A stretch of 64,000 bases of DNA from Muribaculum intestinale. Its GTDB lineage: Bacteria; Bacteroidota; Bacteroidia; Bacteroidales; Muribaculaceae. Position numbers and translations under genes: made by a program. Shown here piece by piece: positions 12,084 to 61,775 of this stretch. The stretch spans positions 1,178,001 to 1,242,000 of the forward strand of contig NZ_CP021421.1 in NCBI RefSeq assembly GCF_002201515.1, written 5' to 3'. Each line of letters starts with the position of its first letter. The stretch's first letter is position 1. The notes beneath the pieces were generated by a model. It saw nothing but the letters and a program-made list of their open reading frames with translations. It had not been told where the DNA came from and did no database searches.

Positions 12084-12264
12084 TTTGTTTAGTCAGAAAT
12101 TGATGGGAAAGGGGTAAGGTACGTCCCGATGTGCCAGGTAGTGCAGCCGCGACTGCAGAGAGGTGATAAAAAATGCAGTCCATTCACGTCCCAGGCCATG
12201 TCGGCGTATCGGATTCCCTTAGTTGGATAAAATGTAAGTGAAAGTAGAGTTCAGTCCTGATTGC
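12084..12264 (-). promoter_or_regulatory. structured intercistronic leader upstream of rpsD (candidate S4 feedback site)
   Basis: This 181-nt gap is among the longest inside the ribosomal block and contains no plausible gene. On the minus strand GACTGCA (12174-12180) can pair with TGCAGTC (12151-12157), while the TGCAG of that second arm can instead pair with CTGCA (12142-12146), so the two hairpins exclude each other. A GGGACGT heptamer occurs twice. Regulation by S4 is inferred from position. Confidence 0.45.
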
Positions 12265-52595: not shown

Positions 52596-53639
52596 TCAGT
52601 CATTTTCCGGACGCAGACGGCGCACGGTCACAGCTGTCTGCCACATCTCCGACTCGCGGAGTGCCTTCAGTTCGGCCTCAAGTTTTACGCGATAGTCGGG
52701 CTTGGAGTTGGAGTCGATGGAAATCTGGGCTTCGTTGCCTGACTTCACACTGTCGTATAGCTTTTGCACAACAGGCTTGATGGCATCGTGGAACGGACCC
52801 ATCCAGTCGAGCGCGCCGCGCTGTGCGGTAGTGGAGCAATTGGCATACATCCAGTCCATGCCCTTTGCGGCAAACAGAGGCATTAGCGACTGGGTAAGCT
52901 CTTCCACAGTCTCGTTGAACGCCTCGGAGGGTGTGTGACCGTTTTCGCGGAGCACCTCATACTGGGCAAGGAGCAGCCCCTGGATAGCTCCCATGAGCGA
53001 GCCGCGTTCGCCGGTAAGGTCGGATGTAGCCTCACGCTGGAAAGTAGTCTCAAACAGATATCCGGATCCGATGCCGATGCCGAGGGCGATTGTGCGCTCC
53101 ATGGCGCGGCCTGTGGCATCCTGATAGATGGCATATGAAGAGTTGAGGCCGCGGCCTTCGAGGAACATGGTGCGGAGTGAAGTGCCGGAGCCTTTTGGAG
53201 CTACCATTATTACATCTATATCCTTGGGAGGCACAACTCCGGTACGGTCATTCCAGGTGATGGCGAATCCGTGGGAGAAGTACAGAGCCTTACCGGGGGT
53301 AAGGTACTGCTTGATGGTAGGCCATACCGACATCACAGCAGCATCGGAGAGGAGGCACATCACGATAGTGGCGCGTTCGGCGGCTTCCTCGATAGAGAAG
53401 AGAGTTTCGCCCGGTTTCCAGCCGTCGGCCACTGCCTTGTCGTAGGTCTTGCCCTGACGCTGGCCAACAATCACATTAAATCCGTTGTCGCGCAGGTTCA
53501 TGCTCTGGCCCGGGCCCTGCACGCCGTATCCGAGCACTGCGATAGTCTCGTCCTTAAGTATCTCACGAGCTTTTTCCAGAGGGAATTCCTCACGGATGAT
53601 GACGTTCTCTTCGACGCCTCCAAAATTCATTTTTGCCAT
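52596..53639 (-). CDS. ilvC: ketol-acid reductoisomerase
   Basis: The 347-residue class I enzyme catalyses the second step of valine and isoleucine synthesis (isomerisation and NADPH reduction). The Rossmann motif is GYGVQGPGQSMNLRDNGFNV (about 37-56). The knotted C-terminal domain has the Mg-binding TSDLTGERGSLMGA and the conserved glutamates of NETVEELTQSL. It is the last gene of the ilv operon, 61 bp after the thioesterase. Confidence 0.96.
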   Translation of the reverse strand: MAKMNFGGVEENVIIREEFPLEKAREILKDETIAVLGYGVQGPGQSMNLRDNGFNVIVGQRQGKTYDKAVADGWKPGETLFSIEEAAERATIVMCLLSDAAVMSVWPTIKQYLTPGKALYFSHGFAITWNDRTGVVPPKDIDVIMVAPKGSGTSLRTMFLEGRGLNSSYAIYQDATGRAMERTIALGIGIGSGYLFETTFQREATSDLTGERGSLMGAIQGLLLAQYEVLRENGHTPSEAFNETVEELTQSLMPLFAAKGMDWMYANCSTTAQRGALDWMGPFHDAIKPVVQKLYDSVKSGNEAQISIDSNSKPDYRVKLEAELKALRESEMWQTAVTVRRLRPEND

Positions 53640-53700: not shown

Positions 53701-54489
53701 TCAGTCACATACAGGATGATATTCGTCGGGACGCCATGTGAAGGCGGCACGCATACACGGACCGTCGGGACCGGTAATCTGCTGTGTGAAGCGCATAGGA
53801 TTGTCGGCATCAGTGGCGGTAGTCACTGTGACCGACTGGGGATAGAGGGCTTCATGCAGAAATGCCATGTCGAGCCTCACAAGGCTGTGGGAATCGTACC
53901 ATGCCAGAGGCCACTGGTCAATAAGCAGTTCAAGATATCGCACGGTATTCACATGTCGGTTGAAGTCGAGGTCGGTGTAGCGGAATGTATAGGCCGTATC
54001 GTGCATGTCGTCGCCCTTTGGCTCCCGGAGTCTGGGTGTCGGCGCTATCGGACATGGACGGTCCTCGACCACCACTTGCGCCAGAGTGTCAAGCGAGGGT
54101 ATTTCTCCGGCCACACGACGCTTTATGTCGATAGCCATCCATATCGTACGCGCGTATCCGAGCACCTCGCCCGACTCTACAGATGTAATCTCCATGTTGC
54201 GCTGGGAAAATAGCCGGTTGCACCCTTCGACCCATGTGCGCAGAGCATACTCCTCCCCTACTGATGGCCAACGCTTCATCTCAAGCGACACACGCGAGAG
54301 CACCCATGCCAGTCCGTCGGCCTGAAGCCGGGCATACCCGATACCGAGATAATTGGCATGCAGGGTGGCTACGTCTATAAGTCGGTTGACCATCAGAGAC
54401 GGTGTCATCCTCTGTTCAGGACCACACTCAGCCGCGGTAAGCAGATAGCTCACCGCATATTCCTTTATAGTCTGCTCTTCGATGCTCAT
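53701..54489 (-). CDS. acyl-ACP thioesterase (FatA/FatB-like)
   Basis: This 262-residue double-hotdog thioesterase would release fatty acids from acyl carrier protein. The first hotdog contains AECGPEQRMTPSLMVNRLID. The second carries the conserved DLDFNRHVNTVRYLEL (near 175-190), with the Asn and His of the D/N-x-N-x-H-V-N motif. Within the ilv operon, between ilvN and ilvC, it may link branched-chain precursors to branched fatty acid pools; that link is inferred. Confidence 0.88.
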   Translation of the reverse strand: MSIEEQTIKEYAVSYLLTAAECGPEQRMTPSLMVNRLIDVATLHANYLGIGYARLQADGLAWVLSRVSLEMKRWPSVGEEYALRTWVEGCNRLFSQRNMEITSVESGEVLGYARTIWMAIDIKRRVAGEIPSLDTLAQVVVEDRPCPIAPTPRLREPKGDDMHDTAYTFRYTDLDFNRHVNTVRYLELLIDQWPLAWYDSHSLVRLDMAFLHEALYPQSVTVTTATDADNPMRFTQQITGPDGPCMRAAFTWRPDEYHPVCD

Positions 54490-54500
54490 GATATAGAAGT

Positions 54501-55052
54501 CTACAGTGTCTCCGTATGCGATTTGCGTATCTCCTGTTCCTGGAGAAACATAGAGAAATACTCCCGGGCCGACTTGGTGACGGCAACGCGTCCGGAGCGC
54601 ACAAACTGACGTATGTCATATTTCTGAAGCTCTCGGAACAGAGCCTCGGTCTCTTCAGAATGACCGGTCTTCTCGATTATCACATACTCACGCGTAATCT
54701 CGAGAATGCGTGCGCTGTGACGGCGGATCACATCCTCTACGCTTGTGTCATCGAGAAGCTGGAGCGTAGGCACCTTGTAGAGCGCCACTTCCTGGTAAAC
54801 AATCTCGTCGTCGGTATATAGGAAGGCACGGAGTACATCGATGCGCTTTTCAATCTGCTTTACCACACGCTCCATCATGGCGCGGTTGCTCAGGCAGGTA
54901 ATTGTAAATTTATGTATCCCTTCGATTGACGATGGGCTAACCGACAGGCTCTCTATGTTGAGCCCGCGACGATAGAAGATCACAGAGATCTGGTTGAGCA
55001 GTCCGGCCTGATTCTCGGTAAAGACTGTAACGGTAAATAGCTGCTGTTCCAT
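54501..55052 (-). CDS. ilvN: acetolactate synthase small (regulatory) subunit
   Basis: The 183-residue protein has an N-terminal ACT domain (FTVTVFTENQAGLLNQISVI, about 5-24) and a C-terminal ALS_ss domain (about 95-165). The ACT domain normally binds valine for feedback inhibition. Its start overlaps the ilvB stop by one base, consistent with stoichiometric production of the two subunits. Confidence 0.95.
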   Translation of the reverse strand: MEQQLFTVTVFTENQAGLLNQISVIFYRRGLNIESLSVSPSSIEGIHKFTITCLSNRAMMERVVKQIEKRIDVLRAFLYTDDEIVYQEVALYKVPTLQLLDDTSVEDVIRRHSARILEITREYVIIEKTGHSEETEALFRELQKYDIRQFVRSGRVAVTKSAREYFSMFLQEQEIRKSHTETL

Positions 55053-56767
55053 TATTTGTCGGTAGGATATGTTTCGGTGGCGTTAATCATCACGTGGTCG
55101 ACGTGTGCGCCGGCCGGAGTCATGGGGAAAATCATGTCGGTCTCGTCGATATTCACATCAAGCAGATATGCTCCGTCATGGGCAAGCATACGCTCAATGG
55201 CTCCCGGAAGCTCTTCGCGTGTAGCCACACTCTCGGCCGCTATACCGTAGGCTTTGGCAATCATCACGAAGTCGGGATTGAGCAGAGGTGTCTGCGAGAA
55301 GCGATCGTTGAAAAACAACGACTGCCACTGGCGCACATTGCCGAGGAAGTTGTTGTTGAGAAGCACAATCTTCACATCGGTGCCATACTCCATTATCGTG
55401 CCCAGTTCCTGTATAGTCATCTGCAGACCGCCGTCGCCGGTATAGAACACGACAGTGCGCTCAGGCGCTCCCATCTTGGCTCCGATGGCTGCCGGGAGTC
55501 CGAATCCCATAGTGCCCAGACCTCCGGATGTGACAATCGAACGGGGCTCGGTGAAGCGCGAGTAACGTGCGGAGAACATCTGGTTCTGGCCCACATCGGT
55601 CACCACGATAGCCTTATGCCCTGTAGCCTTGCTTACATTGTTGACCACCTCGCCCATCGTCATACGCCCCTCTGCGGGGTGCACCTCGCGCATAACCACC
55701 TTCTCATACTCTACGCGGGCCGGCTCATCAAACTCGGCAAGCCACTGCCTGTGGGTATTCTCTTTCACCAACGGCAACAGAGCCTGCAGGGCAGCCTTGG
55801 CATCGCCGTGGATAGTGGCGTGGGTGGCTATGTTCTTGTCGAACTCGGATGCATCGATATCGATATGCACGATTCTGGCCTGTGGAGCATAGGCTTTTAC
55901 ATTGCCGGTGATGCGGTCGTCGAAACGCATGCCTATGGCGATTATCAGGTCGGCCCGGTTGGTGTTGATATTGGGTCCGATATTGCCGTGCATACCGAGC
56001 ATTCCCTTGTACAACGGATGTGCCGAAGGGATTGTAGATAGTCCCAGCAGAGTCGCGGCCACGGGTATCTCGGCCTTTTCGGCAAGAGCGGCAAGCTCGG
56101 CCTCTGCTCCGGATATCATCACGCCATGCCCTGAAAGTATCATCGGACGTTGGGCAGAATTAATCATCTCTGCCACCTGCTCAACATCGTCCATGTCAAT
56201 TGCCGGATATGGCGTATATGAACGTATGTAGTCGCATTTTTTGAACTGAAAATCGGTAAGCCCTACCTGCGCGTCCTTAGTGATGTCGAGCACTACCGGC
56301 CCCGGGCGCCCGGTAGAGGCGATATAGAATGCGCGAGCCACAGCCCATGCCACATCTTCGGCACGCCGTATCTGGTAGCTCCATTTTGTAATCGGCTGTG
56401 TGATGCCTACTACATCGGTCTCCTGAAATGCGTCAAATCCGAGGAAAGGGGTAGCCACCTGTCCGGTTATCACAACCATAGGAGTGCTGTCCATAAGCGC
56501 GTCGCTGAGTCCGGTGACGACGTTGGTGGCCGCCGGGCCGGAAGTGACGATAACCACACCTGTACGTCCGCTCACGCGGGCATATCCCTGTGCGGCGTGT
56601 GTGGCCCCCTGCTCGTGGCGCACAAGTATGTGTCTGAGCTTGTCCTGGTAGTCGTAGAGACGGTCGTAGACCGGCATAATCGAACCACCCGGATAACCGA
56701 ACACAATATCTACCCCCTCGCAGATAAGAGAGCGAATCAGCGCATCGCCGCCTGATATCTTTTCCAT
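55052..56767 (-). CDS. ilvB: acetolactate synthase large subunit
   Basis: The 571-residue TPP-dependent enzyme starts at ATG 56767; the preceding in-frame TTG is less likely. The catalytic Glu is in VRHEQGATHAAQGYARVSG. The TPP/Mg motif GDGGLQMTIQELGTIMEYG ends in LLNNNFLG. It condenses pyruvate with pyruvate or 2-oxobutyrate. It lies between ilvD and ilvN. Confidence 0.96.
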   Translation of the reverse strand: MEKISGGDALIRSLICEGVDIVFGYPGGSIMPVYDRLYDYQDKLRHILVRHEQGATHAAQGYARVSGRTGVVIVTSGPAATNVVTGLSDALMDSTPMVVITGQVATPFLGFDAFQETDVVGITQPITKWSYQIRRAEDVAWAVARAFYIASTGRPGPVVLDITKDAQVGLTDFQFKKCDYIRSYTPYPAIDMDDVEQVAEMINSAQRPMILSGHGVMISGAEAELAALAEKAEIPVAATLLGLSTIPSAHPLYKGMLGMHGNIGPNINTNRADLIIAIGMRFDDRITGNVKAYAPQARIVHIDIDASEFDKNIATHATIHGDAKAALQALLPLVKENTHRQWLAEFDEPARVEYEKVVMREVHPAEGRMTMGEVVNNVSKATGHKAIVVTDVGQNQMFSARYSRFTEPRSIVTSGGLGTMGFGLPAAIGAKMGAPERTVVFYTGDGGLQMTIQELGTIMEYGTDVKIVLLNNNFLGNVRQWQSLFFNDRFSQTPLLNPDFVMIAKAYGIAAESVATREELPGAIERMLAHDGAYLLDVNIDETDMIFPMTPAGAHVDHVMINATETYPTDK

Positions 56768-56821
56768 AATCAATATGTGTTATGTTTCCTTATTAATAAT
56801 ATGTAGATGGCCTGCAGGGGG

Positions 56822-58651
56822 TCATATGTCGCCCCGCACACCACCCTTGTCGGCCGAAGTGACCATCGCCGCGTAGGCTCTTAGGGCCTTGCTGACATAG
56901 CGGTCGCGTCCGGCGGGGGTGAACGCCTCTTTGCCGCGCGCCTCCTCGGCAGCACGTCGGGAGGCAAGCTCCTCATCCGACAGCCGCACCGAGATGGTAC
57001 GTGCAGGAATGTCAATGTCGATTATATCGCCATCGCGCACAAGGCCGATGTTGCCGCCTGCAGCAGCCTCGGGAGAGATATGTCCGATTGACAGTCCGGA
57101 TGTACCGCCTGAGAAGCGCCCGTCGGTAATCAGTGCGCATTCCTTGCCGAGGTGCTTCGACTTGATATAGCTTGTAGGATAGAGCATCTCCTGCATGCCG
57201 GGGCCTCCTTTAGGGCCCTCATAGGTGATGACAACGACATCACCGCTCACCACCTTGTCGCGAAGGATGCCGTCGACAGCCTCTTCCTGTGAACGGAACA
57301 CCTTGGCCGGACCGCTGAAGCGGAAGATGCTCTCGTCGACACCGGCTGTTTTAACAACACATCCGTCAATGGCAATGTTTCCGTGGAGCACAGCCAGGCC
57401 GCCATCTTTTACATATGCATGGTCGAAATCGCGTATGCATCCCGCTGCGCGATCGGTGTCGAGCGACGGATATACAGCGTTCTGCGAGCCCATCAAAAGA
57501 TTGCGTCCTCCGCCCGGAGCGCTGTGCCACAGGCCATCGGCTTCGGGAGTATATGCCGTACCTTCCGGCGAATAGCGCTCGATAGCCTCTTCGAGAGTAA
57601 GACCGTCGACACGCTTCACGCCGGTATGCAGCAGCCCATTGAGAGCAAGCTGCTTCATTATCGACAGGATTCCTCCGGCACGGTTTACATCCTGGATATG
57701 GTAATGCGAATTCGGGGCCACCTTGCAGAGCACAGGGGTGACACGCGACAAGCGGTCGATATCGTCGATAGTGAAGTCGGCTCCAGCCTCGTTGGCAATG
57801 GCCAGCAGATGGAGCACAGTGTTGGTAGAGCCGCCCATGGCGATATCAAGCGACATGGCGTTGAGCATCGCCTCGCGTGTGGCGATGTTGCGCGGGAGTA
57901 CCGAGTCATCGCCATGGCAATAGTAGGCTTCGGCATTCTTCACAATCTGACGGGCAGCACGCCTGAAGAGCTCGCGGCGGTTGGCATGTGTGGCGAGAAC
58001 TGTGCCGTTGCCGGGAAGAGCAAGGCCGATGGCTTCGTTGAGTGAATTCATCGAATTGGCTGTAAACATGCCGGAGCATGAGCCGCAGGTAGGACAACCT
58101 TTCTGCTCAAGCAGACGCACCGTATCATCGCTTACCGATGAATCGGCCGAGTCAATCATTATGTCGATAAGGTCAAGCGGGCGGCCGTCAAGATTGCCGG
58201 CCTCCATCGGGCCTCCGCTGACAAATATCGCCGGGATATTCAGACGCATTGCCGCCATAAGCATACCCGGTGTCACCTTGTCGCAGTTGGATATGCATAC
58301 CATGGCGTCGGCCTTGTGGGCATTGACCATATACTCCACAGAGTCGGCGATAAGGTCGCGCGACGGGAGCGAATACAGCATGCCGTCGTGGCCCATAGCT
58401 ATTCCGTCGTCGATGGCTATGGTATTGAATTCGGCGGCAAAGCAGCCGAGGCGTTCTATCTCTTCCTTTACAATCTGTCCGGCATCATGCAGGTGGGTAT
58501 GACCCGGAACAAACTGGGTAAACGAGTTTACAACGGCTATCACCGGACGGCCCATCTGTTCCTCCGTCATGCCGTTCGCTCTCCAGAGAGCCCGGGCACC
58601 GGCCATTCTTCGGCCTTTTGTCGTGGCGTCGCTGCGAAGTGGATGTGTCAT
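56822..58651 (-). CDS. ilvD: dihydroxy-acid dehydratase
   Basis: The 609-residue Fe-S enzyme makes the 2-oxo acid precursors of valine and isoleucine. Cluster and active-site motifs are present: [13 protein letters not shown] (near 122-134) and [20 protein letters not shown] (near 192-211), with [20 protein letters not shown] late in the sequence. It is the first structural gene of the operon, 37 bp after the attenuator-like hairpin. Confidence 0.97.
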
Positions 58652-58688
58652 TATATTTTGTCTTTTATTATCTGCATGAATAAACCGA

Positions 58689-58718
58689 AAGCCCCTACCG
58701 CTTGATGTGGAGGGGCTT
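58689..58718 (-). terminator. attenuator-like hairpin upstream of ilvD
   Basis: An 8-bp stem, AAGCCCCT (58711-58718 on the minus strand) with AGGGGCTT (58689-58696), is extended by two inner pairs. The T-run after it is interrupted (TTTCGGTTTATT). It lies 33 nt after the leader stop codon and 37 bp before the ilvD ATG, the standard position for an attenuation terminator. Confidence 0.65.
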
Positions 58719-58751
58719 AGTGATTATGTACATTGTCGGACAACTGCACGC

Positions 58752-58841
58752 TCACTTTACCCCAACGCATATGCTAAGGACGGAAATCACAATGCTGACC
58801 ACGAGGCCGGCGCTACCGATAAGGATGAGTGGCAGTGTCAT
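58752..58841 (-). CDS. branched-chain-rich leader peptide, candidate ilv attenuation peptide
   Basis: This 29-codon ATG frame reads MTLPLILIGSAGLVVSIVIS and then VLSICVGVK. Sixteen of 29 residues are Leu (5), Ile (5) or Val (6). It starts about 22 nt after the predicted transcription start and is followed by a hairpin before ilvD. The Val-Gly-Val codons contain GGGG (58760-58763), which can pair with the CCCC of the terminator's 5' arm, a possible antiterminator. Composition, position and the hairpin support a control role. The alternative is a single-span membrane microprotein, which would have a similar composition. Confidence 0.6.
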   Translation of the reverse strand: MTLPLILIGSAGLVVSIVISVLSICVGVK

Positions 58842-58869
58842 AGGCTAATATATTTGCTATTACTTTGCG

Positions 58870-58901
58870 CAAATTTATAACATTATGCCATAAAAACCAA
58901 A
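58870..58901 (-). promoter_or_regulatory. ilv operon promoter
   Basis: On the minus strand TTTG (58898-58901), 20 nt and TAAATTTG (58870-58877) match the Bacteroidota consensus fully. The predicted transcript begins about 22 nt before the leader-peptide ATG. Confidence 0.8.
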
Positions 58902-59029: not shown

Positions 59030-59935
59030 TCAATACGTAAGAGTGAGAGTTATCGGATAATGGTCGGAAATATACTTCACGCCATACTTTTCACTGCTCA
59101 CGACATTGAATTCCAATGGAGTCACATTGCGGTAAAATATATGGTCAAGATTCCATGAATCCTTTGGCACACCGCCGCCGAATCCGTTGAAACTGTAGGT
59201 GTCGGGGTTGAGATTGACCGGAGCCGACTCGCGCGCCCCGCTCATCCACTCAAAGTATGGAGCAAGCCCTTCGCGGCGTTTGTCGGAAGGGTGCCACGAG
59301 GTGTTCATATCGCCGGTGATGAATACCGCCGCACTGTCTCCGGCGTTCTCTTTCATCCGGGCCACATTGAGCCTGACACATTCCGTACGGGCTTCATTGT
59401 CGGCCCACTTATAGGGCAGATGCGTGTCGTAGAAATAAAGGTCCTTGCCGGCCACTTTATCATACAGATGCACCCATACGGTGACACGATACTGGCGGTC
59501 GGTGGCGTTCCATTCCGGTTGCGAAGGCACGTCGGGAGTAGGACTCAACCAGAAGTGCCCCTTGTCGAGCAGAGTGAAGCGGTCCTTCAGATACATAATA
59601 GCCACATGCCCGCACTGCTTGGGGTCGGCACCATTTTCAACGGCACTGAAGAAACCATAGGTATCGCCCAGGTCCTCTATAAGATCAGCACGCTGGTCGG
59701 CGCGTGGTTCCTGAAATCCGATTATATCGGGGCGCTCATCGCGAATCATGTCGATGCTGGGCTGCCTGCGGGCAGCCCATGCATTTTCAGCAGTATCGAT
59801 TTTATTGGTGTAGCGGAGATTGTATGACATTACTTTCATCGGCGTGCCATCGGTCTCCACGCTCTTAGCTATTGCCGGCATGGAACACAAAGCCATGCCG
59901 GCAATAGCACCGAAAAGAATATTGATTGTCTTCAT
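59030..59935 (-). CDS. exported endonuclease/exonuclease/phosphatase-family protein, copy 3
   Basis: The 301-residue protein has a type I signal peptide (MKTINILFGAIAGMALCSMP, cut near AIA) and one EEP domain. Catalytic motifs appear complete: MSYNLRYTN, IIGFQEPRADQ (metal-binding Glu), YDTHLPYK, FITGDMNTSWHP and ISDHYPITLTL. The family hydrolyses phosphodiesters of DNA, lipids or inositides, so the substrate is unknown. It is closely similar to copy 2 (stretch RRQPSIDMIRDE shared), indicating tandem duplication. Unlike copies 1 and 2 it has no lipobox and is probably periplasmic or released. Confidence 0.88.
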   Translation of the reverse strand: MKTINILFGAIAGMALCSMPAIAKSVETDGTPMKVMSYNLRYTNKIDTAENAWAARRQPSIDMIRDERPDIIGFQEPRADQRADLIEDLGDTYGFFSAVENGADPKQCGHVAIMYLKDRFTLLDKGHFWLSPTPDVPSQPEWNATDRQYRVTVWVHLYDKVAGKDLYFYDTHLPYKWADNEARTECVRLNVARMKENAGDSAAVFITGDMNTSWHPSDKRREGLAPYFEWMSGARESAPVNLNPDTYSFNGFGGGVPKDSWNLDHIFYRNVTPLEFNVVSSEKYGVKYISDHYPITLTLTY

Positions 59936-59936
59936 A

Positions 59937-60854
59937 TCAATATCTCAACGTCAGGGTTATGGGATAATGGTCGGAGATGTACTTCACTCCATAGCTGTCA
60001 CTATCGACAACCTTGAACTCAAGCGGAGTCACCTTGCGGTAGAATATATGGTCGAGATTCCATCGATAGGTAGGCGAACCTTCACCGAAACCATTGAAAC
60101 TGAAAGCCTCCGGATTGAGATTGACAGCCTCATCGCGCGCGGCCCACATCCATTCGAAGTATGGCTCAAGACATCCCGAGCGATCGTCTCTGGAATCGGC
60201 CGAGGTATTCATGTCGCCGGTAATGAATACGGGAATACTGCGTCCGGCCTTCTCCTTCATACGCGCCACATTGAGCTTGACACACTCTGTACGAGCCGCC
60301 TTGTCGGCACTCTGATAAGGGAGGTGGGTATTGTAGAAGTAAAATTCCTTTCCGGCCACATTGTCATATAGATGAAGCCATATGGTAGTGCGGTACTGGG
60401 TGTCGGTAGCACCCCATTCAGGCCTCGACTCCACATCGGGTGTGGGGCTCAGCCAGAAATGGCCTTTGTCGAGCACAGTAAAACGGTCGGTACGATACAT
60501 GATTGCCGTATGACCGGTTCGGTTGTCGGCAACACCGTTGTCGACAGCGCTGTACATTGTATAGACATCGCCAAGGGCTCCGGCCAGTTCCTCGCGCTGG
60601 TCGGCGCGAGGCTCCTGAAGGCCTATGATATCCGGATTCTCATCGCGAATCATGTCGATGCTGGGCTGGCGGCGTGAGTCCCACGAGGTTTCGCCAAGAT
60701 CGATGGTGTTGGAATAACGGATGTTGTAGGACATGACCTTCATAGGTGTACCGGCCACGTCAGCCGATGACGCCATGTTGTCATCGTCATCGGAGCCGCA
60801 GGCCGACAGGCCGATGAACAGCATGGAGAGAGGCAAAAGATATATTGGTTTCAT
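59937..60854 (-). CDS. surface lipoprotein of the endonuclease/exonuclease/phosphatase family, copy 2
   Basis: The 305-residue lipoprotein has lipobox FIGLSACGSDDDD; the acidic run just after the Cys resembles the Bacteroidota surface-export signal. EEP motifs are intact: MSYNIRYSN, IIGLQEPRADQ, YNTHLPYQ, FITGDMNTSADS and ISDHYPITLTL. It ends 1 bp before copy 3 starts and is its nearest relative. A role in scavenging phosphate or degrading an extracellular phosphodiester at the cell surface is inferred. Confidence 0.88.
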   Translation of the reverse strand: MKPIYLLPLSMLFIGLSACGSDDDDNMASSADVAGTPMKVMSYNIRYSNTIDLGETSWDSRRQPSIDMIRDENPDIIGLQEPRADQREELAGALGDVYTMYSAVDNGVADNRTGHTAIMYRTDRFTVLDKGHFWLSPTPDVESRPEWGATDTQYRTTIWLHLYDNVAGKEFYFYNTHLPYQSADKAARTECVKLNVARMKEKAGRSIPVFITGDMNTSADSRDDRSGCLEPYFEWMWAARDEAVNLNPEAFSFNGFGEGSPTYRWNLDHIFYRKVTPLEFKVVDSDSYGVKYISDHYPITLTLRY

Positions 60855-60866
60855 AATCTTCTTATC

Positions 60867-61775
60867 TTAGAATTTAACTTTGCAGGAGATAGGATTGTGG
60901 TCGGAGATGTAGGCCACACCATAGTTTCCGTCGAGAGTGGTGAACGACTGCGGAACAGCCTTGTATAGGAATATATGGTCGGGCGTGAGACGTGCACCGG
61001 CGGCCGGAGTGCCGAGCCCGTTGTAGCTCGGCTTTGTATCTCCACCCACGGTACGGGCATCGGTCATCCATCCATAGTATGGAGCAAGGCAGTCGCGGCG
61101 CGCATCGTCGGCATCATTCGACGCGTTCATGTCGCCGGCCAGAATGACAGTCGTTGCGCCGCCGGTGTCGATGACCATCTGCTGTATCATCTCCACATTG
61201 AGTTCCGCACTATTTAGGCGTGCGGCCATATCCTCAGGCTCGTCGCCGTCGTTCATCTGCGTGCATGCCACATAGAACCTGGCATTTGTGGAGTTGTCTT
61301 TCAGCAACGCCCATGTGGTACAGCGGCGTTCCTCATCCTTCGATGCCCAGGGATACGTCATTGTATTCGGCTTCTGGCTGAGCCAGTAGCGCCCCTGCTG
61401 CAACAGAGTATATTTGTCGGCACGATACATCACCGTATTGTGGCGGCCGGTGTTGGCGTCGTTGCCGTTGACATTATAGTCGACCGATGCATATCCGGCA
61501 AGCTGCTGCTCAAGATATATCACCTGGTTCCAATACTGACCCTGCAGGCACAGCACATCGGGTTTTTCGGTCTCAACCATACTGACCAATGCATCGCGGC
61601 GTTTTTTCCAGGACAAGTCGCCGGTCTGGTTGGAATTGTCGGCAAGGACATTGCATGATATGACACATACTTCCGTCGGCCCGGTCACCTGTTCCACTGC
61701 CTGCTTGTCGTCATCGTCGGAGCAGGCGGCGAGCAGCATCATCCCGGCCATCAATATAATATTTCTGATTTTCAT
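60867..61775 (-). CDS. surface lipoprotein of the endonuclease/exonuclease/phosphatase fold with degenerate active site, copy 1
   Basis: The 302-residue lipoprotein has lipobox MLLAACSDDDD, with the surface-export-like acidic run. The EEP fold is recognisable from ISCNVLADN, LAGDMNAS (214-217 GDMN) and ISDHNPIS. Two catalytic positions are changed: the metal-binding Glu of LQE is Gly79 (LCLQGQYWNQ), and the His of the D-T-H motif is Gln173 (ACTQMND). It is more diverged than copies 2 and 3 and may bind rather than cleave its target. It lies 27 bp after the BACON/DUF5689 gene. Confidence 0.8.
   Translation of the reverse strand: MKIRNIILMAGMMLLAACSDDDDKQAVEQVTGPTEVCVISCNVLADNSNQTGDLSWKKRRDALVSMVETEKPDVLCLQGQYWNQVIYLEQQLAGYASVDYNVNGNDANTGRHNTVMYRADKYTLLQQGRYWLSQKPNTMTYPWASKDEERRCTTWALLKDNSTNARFYVACTQMNDGDEPEDMAARLNSAELNVEMIQQMVIDTGGATTVILAGDMNASNDADDARRDCLAPYYGWMTDARTVGGDTKPSYNGLGTPAAGARLTPDHIFLYKAVPQSFTTLDGNYGVAYISDHNPISCKVKF

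Follow-up and report, generated by a model that had tools for sequence, protein, structure and literature searches.

A candidate ribosome-mediated transcription attenuator with a leader peptide rich in branched-chain residues, upstream of ilvD in Muribaculum intestinale and many other Bacteroidales

The leaders of the E. coli ilvGMEDA and ilvBN operons are characterized, in the anatomy generally ascribed to them, by a peptide rich in Ile, Val and Leu with biased codons, by a stop codon beside the antiterminator arm and by a terminator placed before the ilv genes. The leader that we describe here for ilvD in Bacteroidales shares these traits, the likeness being one of anatomy, but it belongs to another phylum, has a promoter of the Bacteroidetes type and a Val-heavy codon block, and showed no generally favoured 1:2 hairpin in the loci that we compared. 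The mechanism proposed is the known ribosome-mediated attenuation, for which there are precedents within the phylum, namely Bacteroid-trp and the flavobacteria. The 2004 survey of Vitreschak and colleagues is also said to have named candidate amino acid attenuators in the Bacteroidetes/Chlorobi. Bacteroid-trp is a leader with Trp codons located upstream of trp genes. Like our candidate it is a cis-regulatory motif of Bacteroidetes, but the two are separate RNA families: no match to RF01692 was above the cut-off in 21 genomes (one in a relative lay slightly below it), and a control Bacteroides genome did match.

Both E. coli operons are listed in PMC1183508, and the Bacteroid-trp RNA motif (RF01692) is included in PMC2864571. 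Strong clues to leader peptide attenuation at the amino acid operons of F. psychrophilum are given in PMC9723704. This system resembles ours in that leader peptide attenuation is proposed before amino acid operons in the same phylum, with structured 5' elements at pheA, hisG and others reported without Rfam hits, and it differs in that it concerns flavobacteria and that neither ilv nor branched-chain is mentioned in its main text. Furthermore, small ORFs in long 5' UTRs of B. thetaiotaomicron are said to resemble leader peptides in PMC7366714. According to PMC3766115, which considers four Rfam motifs, amino acid attenuators may stem from the gamma-proteobacteria, with few transfers; the Bacteroidales ilv leaders would either lie outside that account or have an independent origin. 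No description of the Bacteroidales ilvD leader was found in the mostly open-access literature searched.

The window, that is, the whole stretch of 64,000 nucleotides of M. intestinale that was analysed, carries the putative ilv control region on the minus strand, where it reads promoter, leader frame, hairpin, interrupted U-tract and ilvD. The initial annotation had pointed to a consensus promoter, and we have found a -33 element TTTG (58898-58901) and a -7 element TAAATTTG (58870-58877) spaced by 20 nt, which we take to be of the Bacteroidetes type. The leader frame MTLPLILIGSAGLVVSIVISVLSICVGVK (58752-58841, minus strand) starts with ATG, has 29 codons, among them the 16 Leu, Ile and Val codons that had been counted before, and ends with TGA; its presumed regulatory block, L V V S I V I S V L, lies at 58776-58805, and the peptide has no Pfam match. 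Downstream on the same strand are ilvD (56822-58651, ATG at 58651; PF00920 and PF24877), ilvB for the acetolactate synthase large subunit (55052-56773; TPP enzyme domains and operon position), ilvN for the small subunit (54501-55052; PF10369 and ACT), an acyl-ACP thioesterase gene between ilvN and ilvC (53701-54489; PF01643, PF20791) and ilvC for ketol-acid reductoisomerase (52596-53639; PF07991, PF01450), five genes that would be transcribed as one unit and that, as an operon, fit the amino acids of the leader in their Pfam content. Just upstream of the operon there are three adjoining genes of the endonuclease/exonuclease/phosphatase family (59030-61775, minus strand), perhaps a tandem expansion, and elsewhere in the window an S4-Bacteroidia ribosomal protein leader was detected (12144-12180, minus strand, 44.7 bits).

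Two alternative structures can be drawn between the leader and ilvD. The terminator hairpin (58689-58718, minus strand) has 8 bp, within the 8-10 bp previously proposed, formed by the arms AAGCCCCT (58718-58711) and AGGGGCTT (58696-58689); it is followed by the interrupted U-tract UCGGUUUAUU (58679-58688), has a computed folding energy of -16.0 kcal/mol, scores above 60 of 60 shuffles of the window region, and ends 37 nt before the ilvD ATG, so that the start codon is left uncovered. The antiterminator has a 5' arm GGGGUAAAGUGA (58752-58763, minus strand; pairing positions 58763-58759 and 58756-58752), drawn from the fold, shuffles and relatives, which overlaps the final leader codons and the stop codon, and a 3' arm UCACUAAGCCCC (58712-58723, minus strand; 58723-58719 and 58716-58712), drawn from the fold and shuffles. 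In the fold of the window these arms make two helices, GGGGU/GCCCC and AGUGA/UCACU, which enclose an inner hairpin (58728-58749, minus strand) predicted from the window sequence alone, and GCCCC is common to the antiterminator 3' arm and the terminator. The GGGG at 58763-58760 and its pairing with the CCCC of the terminator arm, both noticed in the initial annotation, are thus borne out, and the other positions that it gave are correct as well. The interrupted U-run that it counted as a weak point stands, but the other one, a short antiterminator, does not, given the second 5-bp helix, the inner hairpin and a folding energy of -21.5 kcal/mol against -16.0 for the terminator.

The window's antiterminator pairing was equalled by 1 of 100 shuffles and it exceeded all 86 swaps with dissimilar loci in the wider of the swap tests given below, and the fold of the whole leader was unremarkable against shuffles (z -1.21). 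Moreover, when the shuffled upstream regions of all loci are pooled, 5.1% of them contain a frame with at least six Ile, Leu or Val (ILV) per eight residues, and the window frame alone is therefore weak evidence. It is the comparison with relatives that puts the candidate attenuator of the window clear of chance.

For this comparison, ilvD upstream regions were taken from 44 of 61 relatives and from 110 of 247 genomes in the order, with E 6.8e-261 as the weakest place accepted and with a duplicate place in G231, five weaker ones, partial or distant ones and two repeat loci omitted. The genome collection contributed its best 80 named loci, and the total came to 209 regions, 207 of them unique over the last 150 nt and 202 usable (at least 200 nt), with two or more genomes present twice (L005/L132 and L130/L198). 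According to a fixed rule that considers ATG frames of 10-50 amino acids ending 35-330 nt upstream of ilvD, at least six ILV in eight residues were found in 124 of the 202 regions (shuffles, 5.1%), and seven or eight in 80 of them (shuffles, 0.57%). The rule gave a leader in 18 of 29 loci of the window's family (11 without) and in 78 of 98 other Bacteroidales loci; among the best 80 named loci listed, it did so in 28 of 52 records with Bacteroidota titles (24 without) and in none of the 23 with other titles. Within the window's genus the count is 12 of 13 by rule and 11 of 13 after reading, as L044 has the hairpin without a convincing leader, and at L052 an evident leader was overlooked by the rule, which accepts ATG starts only. 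A whole-phylum IlvD search at E 1e-150 returned 1 of 158 genomes, the window's own, and is uninformative about leaders in other classes. The ILV block is Val-heavy, the best residue windows of 118 loci holding 411 V, 202 I and 200 L. In the loci with a leader, the peptide sequence drifts, but its ILV composition and position persist together with the antiterminator and the terminator, so the case of a peptide kept without its hairpin, which would have spoken against attenuation, has not been seen thus far. Among the best 80 named loci listed, the leader is missing by rule in six of the seven Prevotella/Prevotellaceae records counted (L151, L164, L169, L171, L175 and L179; L136 has it), which suggests that it was lost in this lineage and makes these bacteria a natural comparison.

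The promoter is also recurrent, as TTTG-N18-22-TANNTTTG lies upstream of the leader in 79 of 117 loci (shuffles predict 0.4), and 104 of 117 have TANNTTTG no more than 110 nt from the leader ATG (11.7 expected). All 124 loci have a T-followed hairpin between the leader stop and ilvD that scores above all three of its own shuffles (median 20.5 versus 6.1), although the hairpin rule yields some hairpin in 286 of 372 shuffles as well. The U-tract is interrupted in the window and in several genus relatives, the mean number of T per 11 nt being 6.3 in the genus (n=11) and 7.2 in the rest (n=101). At L038 the terminator finder chose the probable antiterminator (GGAGGGCTG/CAGCCCTCC) as the best hairpin and a second T-followed hairpin lies nearer ilvD, both alternative structures looking strong.

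Six loci (L038, L041, L044, L060, L122 and L155) were left out of the pairing counts because their hairpin or leader had apparently been miscalled, which leaves 118. RNAalifold on a 12-row family alignment recovered five terminator pairs, two of them changed on both sides, and no antiterminator; MAFFT had placed the arms about one column off register between rows, and for this reason swap tests were used. In the narrower of them, the leader region that spans the stop, with 18 nt on its 5' side and 22 nt on its 3' side, was paired with the terminator 5' arm; in 107 of 118 loci it outpaired a control region lying further upstream, with five ties. Own pairing had a mean of 17.79, against 13.95 (sd 0.29, maximum 15.04) when leader regions were permuted 2000 times among loci, figures that overstate the separate changes through the kinship of the sequences and are pulled the opposite way by the likeness of arms among loci. 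Taken singly, 109 loci had a sufficient number of dissimilar partners, and in 57 of them the own region outscored 95% or more of the foreign ones; the earlier, wider swap test gave a weaker result, with 49 of 118 loci outscoring 95% or more of their swaps. A strict heptamer test gave 7/7 pairs in 67 of 117 loci; swapped pairs reach this in 32.6%, because many arms resemble each other. Another 31 loci had 6/7 and 19 had 5/7, the window being among the latter because its antiterminator has an internal loop. The 67 full matches comprise 23 different terminator heptamers, several of them the common CCTTTC arm in another register, and clearly different pairs include GCCTCTC/GAGGGGT (L004), GCTCCCG/CGGGAGC (L006), GCCGATT/AATCGGT (L115) and TTCCGGG/CCCGGAA (L120). 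All these data indicate that, at the level of sequence, the leader-stop region covaries with the terminator 5' arm. The initial annotation had asked for conserved ILV codons with covarying stems in related Bacteroidales; both were found, and its reading of the region as a leader-peptide attenuator is supported to that extent. What speaks against it is the absence of the leader, by the rule used, from a considerable share of the relatives, and L044, the genus member that has a hairpin only.

The position of the arm is consistent with control by a translating ribosome. In a wide search over the 118 loci, 104 have an arm that either overlaps the stop codon or starts at most 7 nt after it; counted from where the stop codon ends, the median start is -3.5. 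The last codon of the ILV block lies a median of 12 nt, and the first a median of 33 nt, upstream of the stop, and 12 nt separate the block end from the arm in the window. Judging from the size of a ribosome, one at the stop would cover the arm and one in the block would leave it largely free. We therefore consider it very probable, from these comparisons, that the region controls the ilvD-ilvB-ilvN-thioesterase-ilvC operon as a ribosome-mediated transcription attenuator. RNA polymerase would start near 58862, as we infer from the promoter, and a ribosome would translate the leader. With ample charged Val, Ile and Leu tRNA, the ribosome would reach the stop at 58752 and cover the antiterminator 5' arm (58763-58752), the terminator at 58718-58689 would form, and transcription would stop in the region of 58688-58680. 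Slow reading of the block at 58805-58776 would instead hold the ribosome upstream of the arm, which could then pair with 58723-58712 before the terminator 3' arm exists, so that transcription would enter ilvD. A 1:2 hairpin of the E. coli trp type, seen by eye in genus relatives, was not upheld as a general feature (mean z -0.35, p 0.004; median -0.04; window z +0.5), and the state without translation would consequently be read-through. In E. coli trp the untranslated state is different, and is not read-through.

Three other explanations have to be weighed against this attenuator. The frame could encode an independent small membrane peptide with its own terminator, ilvD being reached by read-through or from another promoter; the peptide is indeed hydrophobic and followed by a terminator, but it has no Pfam match, the peptides vary widely save in ILV content and position, and the covariation of the terminator arm with the stop-codon region would be needless for a plain gene end. 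An independently conserved membrane protein, which the initial annotation had raised as a possible refutation, is unlikely because the peptide drifts while ILV content, position, antiterminator and terminator are kept, and we regard the membrane-peptide explanation in general as highly improbable. The interrupted U-tract of the window and several genus relatives would fit with a hairpin that affects ilvD translation or RNA stability rather than termination, or that requires a factor, but the hairpin ends short of the ilvD ATG, and long T runs stand behind the corresponding hairpin in many other lineages; this explanation, too, is quite improbable.

Moreover, alternative hairpins by themselves leave the sensed signal undefined, and an attenuator could respond to something other than tRNA, such as a metabolite riboswitch, a protein or a T-box, the ILV frame being accidental. 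Against this, no Rfam family, including T-box and the known amino acid riboswitches, was above the gathering score in the leader stretch of the window, and the upstream regions of 18 relatives gave nothing above it except one tRNA. ILV codons and their synonymous bias also recur despite the drift of the peptide, and we give such a signal hardly any probability at all. The ribosome-mediated attenuator remains our preferred explanation.

The synonymous codons of the leaders are strongly biased. Compared with the expectation from their own ilvD in 75 loci with a full ilvD, GUC is used 176 times against 63.1 expected (2.8x; 68 loci up, 6 down), AUU 203 against 95.9 (2.1x; 63 up, 10 down) and CUA 67 against 9.3 (7.2x; 45 up, 30 down), GUA (19 against 85.5), GUU (23 against 67.3), AUC and AUA are under-used, and GUG is as expected. 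As a control, 257 long frames from 64 loci of at least 4 kb were taken whole, over codons 2-31 and over their ILV-rich stretches, and their usage was unremarkable throughout: GUC makes up 0.19-0.25 there and 0.55 in leaders, AUU 0.33-0.39 and 0.74, and CUA 0.04-0.05 and 0.27. The bias is therefore not due to gene position or to ILV-rich runs. The 56 tRNA matches of the window genome include Val TAC three times, Ile GAT twice, Leu GAG three times and Leu TAG, TAA and CAG once each, and no tRNA-Val(GAC), so that GUC must be read there by tRNA-Val(UAC); tRNA-Ile(GAU) decodes AUU by wobble, and CUA is served by a single tRNA-Leu(UAG) gene. In the part of the tRNA matches scanned for another genome, G038, there are one Val GAC and two Val TAC genes, plus several unclear ones. 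We infer that GUC is probably decoded by a poor or minor tRNA partner. It is possible, though we would not expect it to hold in the end, that the leader is a codon-specific sensor tuned across Bacteroidales to the worst-read branched-chain codons GUC, AUU and CUA; the bias may also reflect some requirement of the RNA sequence unrelated to decoding. The idea that leader codon bias evolved for sensitivity is an old one, and its rare-codon form is called an oversimplification in PMC1183508. A tRNA-Val(GAC) gene of G038 (C15:131864-131938), whose product should read the GUC that leaders favour, lies about 390 nt upstream of ilvD at L031, on the same strand and before the ilv leader; it is the sole tRNA-Val in the 209 upstream regions (at most 700 nt), and we discarded it as a telling link.

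Candidate leaders of this kind were also noticed at other operons. For hisG, 17 loci from 18 places were used (four incomplete, with the start guessed), and in eight of these 17 loci of relatives His codons follow one another within an upstream frame (L233, L235, L237, L239, L240, L242, L244 and L246), with runs of up to eight His, and these frames are candidate his attenuators in Bacteroidales with the same logic as the ilv leader. A small ILV-rich frame precedes leuA in three of 18 loci (L212, L213 and L214), which are alike by eye, and inspection by eye of the hisG and leuA upstream regions of the window genome itself revealed no leader. A general preference of leaders for wobble codons failed in the His leaders, whose runs have 23 CAT and 17 CAC, the genes having 36 CAT and 33 CAC.

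Finally, these leaders provide the Bacteroidales with a candidate regulator that recurs among them and would act on the synthesis of branched-chain amino acids, and the position of the thioesterase gene implies that the attenuator would control a lipid enzyme as well. The codon bias offers a sharp test, outside the Proteobacteria, of which codons sensitise attenuators, and a codon-specific sensor, if true, would signal slow translation at weak or minor tRNA-codon pairs ahead of a general shortage, in a system that would represent a large undescribed RNA family in a major order of gut bacteria. If the proposed mechanism is true, the ribosome must trail RNA polymerase closely enough in Bacteroidota to control it.
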